Assembly (NCBI GenBank): GCA_949292245.1
Contig: CASEYV010000013.1
Location: 1 to 32,299 of the forward strand
DNA: 32,299 bases
Source: an uncultured bacterium
GTDB lineage: Bacteria > Bacillota_I > Bacilli_A > RF39 > UBA660
Direction: 5' to 3'
The notes under the pieces were generated by a model that was not told the DNA's origin, did not search any database, and saw only the letters and a list, made by a program, of their open reading frames with translations. A program made the position numbers and the translations under genes. Below, piece after piece: positions 19,818 through 21,599 of this stretch (position 1 is the stretch's first letter; the number at the start of each line of letters is the position of its first letter).

Positions 19818-19845
19818 TAATATATTTTTATATTGGACATATAAT
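19818..19845 (+). promoter_or_regulatory. Candidate SigE promoter of spoIIIAH
   Basis: TAATATA (6 of 7 to KMATATT), then 13 bases, then CATATAAT (7 of 8 to CATACAHT). The predicted start lies just ahead of the GGAGGG ribosome site. The -10 and following bases (CATATAATTAATTAG) closely resemble those of cotE (CATATATTTAATTAG). Confidence 0.6.
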
Positions 19846-19869: not shown

Positions 19870-20355
19870 ATGGTAAATAAACAAAATTTATGGTTTGTAA
19901 CATTATTTTCATTAATTTTAGTATTAGGAATTTATTATGTAAGTATGTCAGATGAATCATTAACAGCTTTAAATGCCGAAAATGATGTATCAGAAGTTAT
20001 CAAAGTTGAAGAATCAGATGTAATTGTAGCACTACAAGTTGCTGATGATGAATCAGTATTAGAACAAATGACTGAATATCAAAACATTTTATTAGATGAA
20101 GCTGCTACATTAGAAGAAAAAAATGATGCTTATGAAGGATTACAAGCATTAAACAGCAAACAAAGTGAATGTCAAAAAATAGAAAAATTAATTACTGATG
20201 AATTCAAATATGATAATTTTGTTAAAATTGATGGTGATACCATTAATATTATAATTGCTAGTAGTGATCATAATAAAGAAATTGCCAATAAGATTATTAG
20301 AGCAGTACAAGAATTATATGATACTCAAAAATATATTACAGTTAAATTTGAATAA
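19870..20355 (+). CDS. spoIIIAH: Stage III sporulation protein SpoIIIAH
   Basis: SpoIIIAH sits in the mother-cell membrane and binds forespore SpoIIQ, forming the channel that joins the two cells after engulfment. The 161-residue product begins MVNKQNLWFVTLFSLILVLGIYYV, a signal anchor that matches the family. A short linker precedes a helical segment (YQNILLDEAATLEEKNDAYEGLQAL) and the ring-building fold (KIEKLITDEFKYDNFVKIDGDTINIIIAS...VKFE). It is about 55 residues shorter than in B. subtilis because the long Glu/Lys-rich linker is missing. ATG 19870 is preferred over ATG 19858 because GGAGGG lies between them. It stands apart from any spoIIIAA-AG operon. A hairpin terminator follows. Confidence 0.9.
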   Translation: MVNKQNLWFVTLFSLILVLGIYYVSMSDESLTALNAENDVSEVIKVEESDVIVALQVADDESVLEQMTEYQNILLDEAATLEEKNDAYEGLQALNSKQSECQKIEKLITDEFKYDNFVKIDGDTINIIIASSDHNKEIANKIIRAVQELYDTQKYITVKFE

Positions 20356-20371
20356 TTAGACTGTTATTGGT

Positions 20372-20398
20372 ACCAATTATAAAATACTTCATAAAATA
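20372..20398 (+). promoter_or_regulatory. SigK-consensus promoter of gerE, overlapping the spoIIIAH terminator
   Basis: AC (20372-20373), exactly 16 bases, then CATAAAATA (20390-20398) matches AC-N16-CATANNNTA at every defined base. The -10 lies in the left arm and loop of the hairpin at 20381-20412. The predicted start is near 20405, so gerE transcripts would carry only the right arm. In B. subtilis gerE is SigK-dependent. Confidence 0.7.
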
Positions 20399-20417
20399 CT
20401 ATGAAGTATTTTGTTTT
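20381..20417 (+). terminator. spoIIIAH terminator
   Basis: A perfect 13-bp stem AAAATACTTCATA (20381-20393) / TATGAAGTATTTT (20400-20412) has a 6-base loop and is followed by GTTTT. The stem is long but A/T-rich and the tail is short, so some read-through into gerE is possible. Confidence 0.7.
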
Positions 20418-20430
20418 AGGAAGGGATAAT

Positions 20431-20637
20431 ATGAATAAAAAAATATTAACTGAAAGAGAACAAGAAGTTTTTGAATTACTTGTAATTAATAAAACAACTA
20501 GTGAAATAGCCCAAAGTTTAGGAATTAGTGAAAAAACAGTTCGCAACCACATATCTAATGCTATTCAAAAATTAGGTGTTAAGGGTCGGGCCCAAGCAGT
20601 AGTAGAACTTATTAAACTAGGTGAAATTACAATTTAA
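20431..20637 (+). CDS. gerE: Sporulation transcription factor GerE (LuxR-type HTH)
   Basis: GerE is a small DNA-binding protein that, with SigK, switches coat and other late mother-cell genes on or off. The 68-residue product is little more than the HTH: LTEREQEVFELLVINKTTSEIAQSL, then GISEKTVRNHISNAIQKLGVKGRAQAVVELIKLGE. It is very close to the 74-residue Bacillus protein, including the recognition helix KTVRNHISNA and GVKGR. The start is ATG 20431 behind AGGAAGGG; the upstream ATG at 20401 lies in the hairpin and lacks a ribosome site. The SigK-type promoter, position between spoIIIAH and gerM, and sequence all agree. Confidence 0.95.
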   Translation: MNKKILTEREQEVFELLVINKTTSEIAQSLGISEKTVRNHISNAIQKLGVKGRAQAVVELIKLGEITI

Positions 20638-20656: not shown

Positions 20657-20693
20657 CTTCATTTTAATAATATAATTAAACAGGTGTTTAATT

Positions 20694-21599
20694 ATGTTAA
20701 AAAGATCATTATTTAGAAGAATTATGCTTGCAACATTAGCTTTATTTTTACTTTTAATTATTTATTTTTTCCCAACTTCTCCCCAAATATCTGAGTCACT
20801 TTCATATATTGAGAAAGAAGAAATGCCCATATTTTTAGTAGATAGCATGGAATATATTGCTAGAACAACTATTGTTAAAGAAAGTGATAATACAATTGAT
20901 TTAATAAAAGAAATCATTGATAGCTTAACAATAGATAGTAAAAAATCAAATTACATTCGTGAAGGTTTTAAAGCCATTATTCCTAAAGATTCAAAGATTT
21001 TAAATATTTCTTTAGAAAACAATATTTTAACACTTGATTTTAGTAAAGAATTATTAAATGTCGATGAAGAAAATTCTGAAAAAATGTTAGAAGCCATTAT
21101 TTATTCTCTAACCGAATTAGATGAGGTAAAAAAAATAAAAATATTAGTTGAAGGTAATACTCTAACTAATTTACCAAATTCCAATAAAAAATTACCAGAA
21201 TACTTGGATAAAAATTATGGTATTAACAAAATATATAATTTAGATTCTATAAAAGATACAAGTAAAACAACAATATATTATATAAGCAAATATAGTGATT
21301 ATTATTATTATGTACCAGTAACTAAAATAAGTAATGAAAATACTGAAAAAGCCGAAATTATTATTAATGAATTAAAAACCACCCCAATATATCATACTAA
21401 TTTAATAAGTTATCTTGCAGCTTCAACTAATTTAACTAATTATGAAATATTAGAAAATAGTATTACCCTATCTTTTGATAACCATTTGCTTGCTAATTTA
21501 GATGATGAAGACATTTTAGAAGAAGTAAAGTATGCAATATCCTTATCAATTCGTGATTCTTATGGCATAAATGAAGTAATATTTAACTTTCCCAGTTAA
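20694..21599 (+). CDS. gerM: Sporulation/germination protein GerM (two GerMN domains)
   Basis: GerM is needed for normal sporulation and germination; in B. subtilis it acts in the intermembrane space, helping to place the SpoIIIAH-SpoIIQ complex. The 301-residue product has an N-terminal membrane helix (MLATLALFLLLIIYFF) but no lipobox Cys, unlike Bacillus GerM, which is a lipoprotein. Two GerMN repeats follow. The first (about 50-155) has ILNISLENNILTLDFSKELLN and IIYSLTELDEVKKIKILVEG. The second (about 195-300) has YEILENSITLSFDNHLLA and YAISLSIRDSYGINEVIFNF. The start follows AGGTG. Its neighbours spoIIIAH and gerE are its functional partners. Confidence 0.9.
   Translation: MLKRSLFRRIMLATLALFLLLIIYFFPTSPQISESLSYIEKEEMPIFLVDSMEYIARTTIVKESDNTIDLIKEIIDSLTIDSKKSNYIREGFKAIIPKDSKILNISLENNILTLDFSKELLNVDEENSEKMLEAIIYSLTELDEVKKIKILVEGNTLTNLPNSNKKLPEYLDKNYGINKIYNLDSIKDTSKTTIYYISKYSDYYYYVPVTKISNENTEKAEIIINELKTTPIYHTNLISYLAASTNLTNYEILENSITLSFDNHLLANLDDEDILEEVKYAISLSIRDSYGINEVIFNFPS

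Follow-up and report, generated by a model that had tools for sequence, protein, structure and literature searches.

Organization of the spoIIIAH-gerE junction

In the window (the whole stretch of 32,299 nucleotides analysed here, with a G+C content of 24.9%), spoIIIAH and gerE are separated by 75 bases, and a gerM-like gene comes next after gerE. The features of the junction are as follows:

19838..19845, + strand: putative SigE-like -10 of spoIIIAH, CATATAAT, a CATATA-type motif
19870..20355, + strand: spoIIIAH (PF12685, 35.7 bits; cut-off 30.6)
20362..20375, + strand: outer left segment, predicted partner of the gerE RBS/start region in read-through RNA (minimum-free-energy fold and pairing test in the genus)
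20372..20373, + strand: AC of the SigK-type -35, supported by conservation of its spacing
20381..20393, + strand: left arm of the hairpin, AAAATACTTCATA, with 13 of 13 pairs formed; kept in the genus; its last 4 bases open the -10, and AAAATACTT lies in the arm outside AC and CATANNNTA
20390..20398, + strand: SigK-type -10, CATAAAATA, spanning left arm and loop
20394..20399, + strand: hairpin loop, AAATAC
20400..20412, + strand: right arm of the hairpin, TATGAAGTATTTT; TATG is invariant and TATGAAG near-invariant in the genus
about 20404-20406, in the right arm: predicted SigK start, placed by the typical spacing from a -10
20409..20417, + strand: T-rich tract, TTTTGTTTT, behind the stem core, with conserved right-side T's
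20418..20425, + strand: gerE RBS region, AGGAAGGG, after the right arm and GTTTT
20431..20637, + strand: gerE (PF00196, 71.2 bits), with its ATG at 20431

The letters used here for the SigK consensus are the generally known ones, and the junction shows what they call for: an AC-type -35, a CATANNNTA -10 and a spacer of 16-17 bases. The match, AC followed by N16 and CATAAAATA, overlaps a perfect 13-bp dyad with which it shares the letters CATA. These coordinates confirm the original prediction, which had placed the -10 on the left arm and loop of a 13-bp hairpin with AC exactly 16 bases upstream. A logo of the SigK promoter consensus has been published (PMC517825). Taken by itself the promoter match is not significant, as the window has two occurrences of AC-N16-CATANNNTA where 2.4 are expected. 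No other perfect dyad in the window is as long, and none of at least 13 bp appeared in 20 shuffles (0/20); the segment 20381-20418 folds with -12.5 kcal/mol (z -6.15; 0/200 shuffles).

Two of the features of an intrinsic terminator, a stable hairpin and a T-tract, are present, and the third, a G-C-rich stem, is not. A terminator scan requiring at least three G-C pairs did not call the hairpin, whose stem has two G-C pairs of 13. Because the stem is not G-C-rich, we refer to the hairpin as terminator-like. A sigma-A promoter at the same site was also considered and rejected, with weak matches only, about as frequent in shuffles of the region.

Further downstream, a 10-bp dyad (ATAATTAAAC/GTTTAATTAT, with AGGT between its arms; 20672-20695) encloses the RBS of the gerM-like gene and extends to its ATG.

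Sigma factors of the source genome

The source genome comprises 1.69 Mb in 108 contigs. Named relatives with a close GerE are metagenome genomes of uncultured Bacilli or Tenericutes. The source genome probably belongs to an RF39-type lineage, for which a capacity for spore formation has been predicted (PMC10868615). Sigma-70 region 2 has eight matches in the genome, four of which best match SigE, SigG, SigK and SigF (NCBIfam). None of the four candidates reaches its strict equivalog cut-off, as a distant lineage would lead one to expect, and their names denote the best match. The SigK protein scores above the SigK subfamily cut-off (301 vs. 252 bits), and SigK-like matches were found in 30/30 genomes of the genus.

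The genome also encodes large sigma-70-like proteins (about 780 amino acids) with long extra parts, on contigs C88 and C39 (L002, L003, L007, L118). One of these large proteins is divergent beside sigK, and frames of comparable size were seen close to sigK in several further genomes of the genus.

Conservation of the element within the genus

The genus sample consisted of 30 genomes, with gerE found in 27 and spoIIIAH in 29, and 28 copies of the element were compared (L009-L030, L032-L035, L037 and L122). CATANNNTA was present inside its dyad at 28 of the 29 spoIIIAH junctions, the exception being G021. In one genome (G020) the element is retained at a contig end; in another (G010) it follows spoIIIAH and gerE is found at one end of a different contig, an arrangement in which rearrangement and assembly fault are not distinguishable. 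The G021 genome (L121) has retained spoIIIAH and a SigK gene; gerE and the element are both absent from it.

All 28 same-genus copies carry CATANNNTA, with variation confined to NNN, and the distance from AC to the -10 is 16 bases (14 loci) or 17 bases (12 loci) in 26/26 loci measured. Only through this conservation does the promoter match become convincing. The exact core CTTCATANNNTANTATGAAG occurs as a single copy per genome in 26/30 genomes of the genus; L026 and L122 are core variants in which the stem is retained. The upstream flanks diverge freely among the loci, and a chance origin of the element was rejected on the ground of genus-wide conservation amid such flanks. Nearly all of the 26 same-genus loci have a CATATA-type SigE-like -10 upstream of spoIIIAH at a similar spacing.

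RNAalifold on a MAFFT alignment returned 8 pairs only, one of them compensated, since a core without variation carries no information and the outer part, with its bulges, is misaligned; it was replaced by an anchored pair count. As the inner seven stem pairs hardly vary, evidence of covariation is limited to the outer pairs. In the anchored count of the genus loci, pair 8 is mostly A-U and otherwise G-U, G-C or U-A, L122 has U-G at pair 6, and no A-C mismatch was seen at any stem pair of the genus copies. On the right side the T's persist where the left-side A's are lost, as would those of a T-tract. Covariation or G-U at the outer pairs, together with retention of the T-tract, makes both functions of the overlapping element look selected.

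The junction in other genera of the family

We searched 98 genomes of the family for spoIIIAH and examined 70 junctions with gerE from other genera. In nearly all family genomes examined gerE lies directly after spoIIIAH. A SigK-type -10 was found at 68 of the other-genus junctions, in most of them with AC 15-17 bases upstream. By our own criteria, a terminator-like hairpin covers the -10 at 23/26 junctions of the genus vs. 0/68 in the other genera, while a separate terminator between spoIIIAH and the promoter is seen at 15/68 junctions in other genera vs. 0/26 in the genus. A short CATA...TATG dyad or more is present at 34/68 other-genus junctions. In a tree of SpoIIIAH and GerE the genus forms one clade (99/99). 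By eye, AC-N16/17-CATANNNTA can also be read before gerE of Oceanobacillus, Virgibacillus and Paenibacillus, without the same hairpin.

From these comparisons, the SigK-type promoter is family-wide and apparently older than the hairpin, and the fusion of promoter and hairpin, apart from one look-alike, is specific to the genus and seems a local invention. In the genus the hairpin around the promoter occupies the place where other genera may have a separate terminator. The original prediction that stem and promoter are kept together, with compensatory changes, thus stands throughout the genus, where some compensation is seen, and does not extend to other genera (hairpin in 0/68). It had named relatives retaining one element without the other as evidence against itself, and such relatives were found: other genera have the promoter without the terminator hairpin.

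The look-alike was seen at L110, from a distant genus, where the -10 lies inside a 15-bp dyad (AAAATTCTCATAAAATAATATGAGAATTTT) before gerE. As its tree position is far from the genus, this dyad probably arose separately.

In one clade of the family (L053, L055, L059, L061, L071, L088 and L091), TTTAGGTGA or CTAGGTGA stands right behind the SigK-type -10; here RBS and promoter nearly touch, and the motif resembles a GerE box.

Pairing of the -35 region with the gerE RBS

In many genera, CTCACT is found near the -35 and AGTGAG at the RBS of gerE, a complementarity that the original prediction had omitted. We compared the pairing of each locus's own upstream segment with its own RBS against that with the RBSs of other loci (5000 permutations); as related sequences are not independent, neither these counts nor those against shuffles given below should be read as exact probabilities. 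In the other genera, the cognate duplex had -10.81 kcal/mol vs. -8.78 kcal/mol for permuted pairs (0/5000), and cognate pairing was still better at those loci that lack AGTGAG in the RBS (1/5000). For the genus, where the segment was restricted to what lies beyond the core stem, the values were -7.01 vs. -5.70 kcal/mol (0/5000; z -4.2).

Reversed segments gave z -0.3 in the genus (2033/5000) and -2.6 in the others. With the next gene as control we obtained z -1.9 in the genus and -1.2 in the others (640/5000), and with spoIIIAH z -2.6 and -0.9, respectively. All these controls are weaker than the cognate RBS pairing; those in the genus show a degree of cognate bias owing to relatedness (z of -1.9 and -2.6, vs. 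-4.2). Against shuffles of the upstream segment, p was at most 0.05 at 26/68 loci of other genera and 8/26 of the genus; for the next gene the corresponding numbers were 4/60 and 0/23. Duplex energies of sense vs. antisense did not discriminate between an RNA stem and a DNA dyad.

For the read-through RNA (20353-20445) the predicted structure is a single long stem with imperfections, which begins at 20362 and reaches the start codon (-21.3 kcal/mol, z -4.45). RNA beginning at 20404, the predicted SigK start, gives -1.5 kcal/mol with a nearly unstructured RBS; at the level of prediction this bears out the earlier claim that RNA from the gerE promoter, having lost the left arm, would not form the hairpin. 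The geometry predicted here is that of an RBS lock, with the left arm upstream of the start, the right arm at the RBS, and the gene's own transcript without the left arm. At the window locus and many genus loci the RBS pairing is weak. In partition-function calculations, RBS accessibility in read-through RNA compared with shuffled upstream sequence was 0.41 vs. 0.43 in the genus, which is not separable from shuffles, and 0.35 vs. 0.42 in the others. Because this measure does not set the genus apart from shuffles, the predicted lock would be moderate there and stronger in the rest of the family. The pairing between -35 region and RBS is more widespread than the hairpin fusion and, in most genera, better supported by the sequences.

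Proposed function and alternative explanations

Among the regulators of the mother-cell cascade GerE comes last, and its early appearance is undesirable. We consider it likely that the element insulates this late regulator gene from its early neighbour spoIIIAH. Polymerase coming from the SigE-type spoIIIAH promoter would transcribe both hairpin arms, and the hairpin with its T-tract would stop part or much of spoIIIAH transcription. Any RNA reading on could form a structure that reaches from its -35 region to the RBS of gerE, which would leave gerE poorly translated. SigK polymerase at AC-N16-CATAAAATA would start inside the right arm; since the start falls within that arm, the SigK-started RNA would lack the left arm and the hairpin, pass without termination there and keep its RBS open. 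The sequence-based support consists of the overlap itself, conservation of both elements, covariation or G-U at outer pairs, the lack of a second terminator in the genus and non-random RBS pairing. With two G-C pairs in the stem, termination may be weak.

Few G-C pairs, along with the family-wide RBS pairing, would suit a hairpin whose sole role is to lock the translation of read-through RNA, without termination, like that of B. subtilis sigG. We regard this as unlikely, as the T-tract is conserved independently of pairing and the genus has no second terminator, whereas several other genera have one. The dyad might instead be a DNA operator over the -10 and start, for GerE itself, SpoIIID or another regulator, with the RNA hairpin incidental: the core CTTCATA...TATGAAG is near-invariant beyond the needs of a terminator, and GerE is a LuxR-type DNA-binding protein. 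Unlike a regulon operator, though, the exact core has a single occurrence in each genome, at this junction only, and a general operator was rejected on this ground (the sole core match outside the genus, in G040, precedes an unrelated gene). Outer-stem changes include G-U and never A-C, the T-tract is retained past the pairing, and other genera have the same promoter without a long dyad, all of which makes an operator quite improbable. Finally, it is very improbable that the hairpin is just the spoIIIAH terminator or 3' end protector, with gerE expressed mainly by read-through or from another promoter and the SigK match fortuitous in AT-rich DNA: about 2.4 AC-N16-CATANNNTA per window are expected by chance and the G010 element stays behind spoIIIAH with gerE on another contig, but AC spacing and CATANNNTA are conserved in the genus and most of the family amid free flanks, and gerE of Oceanobacillus, Virgibacillus and Paenibacillus shares the arrangement without the same hairpin.

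Insulation of gerE by a dual element can be put into a wider frame, for and against which we see the chances as evenly balanced. One DNA segment would serve as a stage switch, as RNA terminating or locking early read-through and as DNA forming the late SigK promoter. This dual element would have arisen in one genus by growth of a terminator around a pre-existing promoter, with other genera having a separate terminator or none, and family-wide the -35 region would double as the RBS-covering strand. The hand-over from a SigE to a SigK stage proposed originally fits the source genome, which has sigE and sigK genes and a conserved SigE-like -10 before spoIIIAH; it is not general for the gene pair. 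Spore formers with gerE right behind a SigE-type gene need insulation, which at this junction seems to come from the promoter sequence itself. Separate terminator, RBS lock and fused element make the family a comparative series for how one regulatory element can gain two opposite jobs.

Comparison with known systems

In E. coli frd/ampC, the terminator of the upstream operon overlaps expression signals of the next gene, as at gerE. The ampC attenuator lies downstream of the ampC start and is hence part of ampC RNA; in the gerE element, by contrast, the stem contains the -10, and gerE RNA would be without the hairpin. For B. subtilis sigG, a hairpin of 20 or more pairs has been proposed to block translation of spoIIG read-through RNA, and it cannot form in RNA from the gene's own promoter (PMC5942855). 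The likeness lies in read-through RNA being blocked and own-promoter RNA being free of the hairpin, as predicted for gerE. That system concerns the forespore sigF/sigG step and another gene pair, whereas the gerE element belongs to the mother-cell SigE/SigK step; no terminator with a -10 in its stem is described there (PMC5942855), while the gerE -10 lies in a terminator-like stem.

In phage T4, the RBSs of gene e (lysozyme), soc, gene 49 and I-TevI are hidden in early long transcripts, and the late promoters sit where the 5' strand of the structure is encoded, so that late RNA lacks it (PMC3014915). Gene e resembles the gerE element, as predicted, in that late RNA is without the RBS-hiding strand; it differs in using a phage late sigma factor, with no role for termination and no bacterial development. 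A literature search, with most subscription papers outside its coverage, found no description of such an element at gerE. The logic is known from sigG and T4 gene e. The gerE case differs in having its -10 within a terminator-like stem, in belonging to the SigE/SigK step of the mother cell, and in that separate terminators and the fused element contrast within one family.
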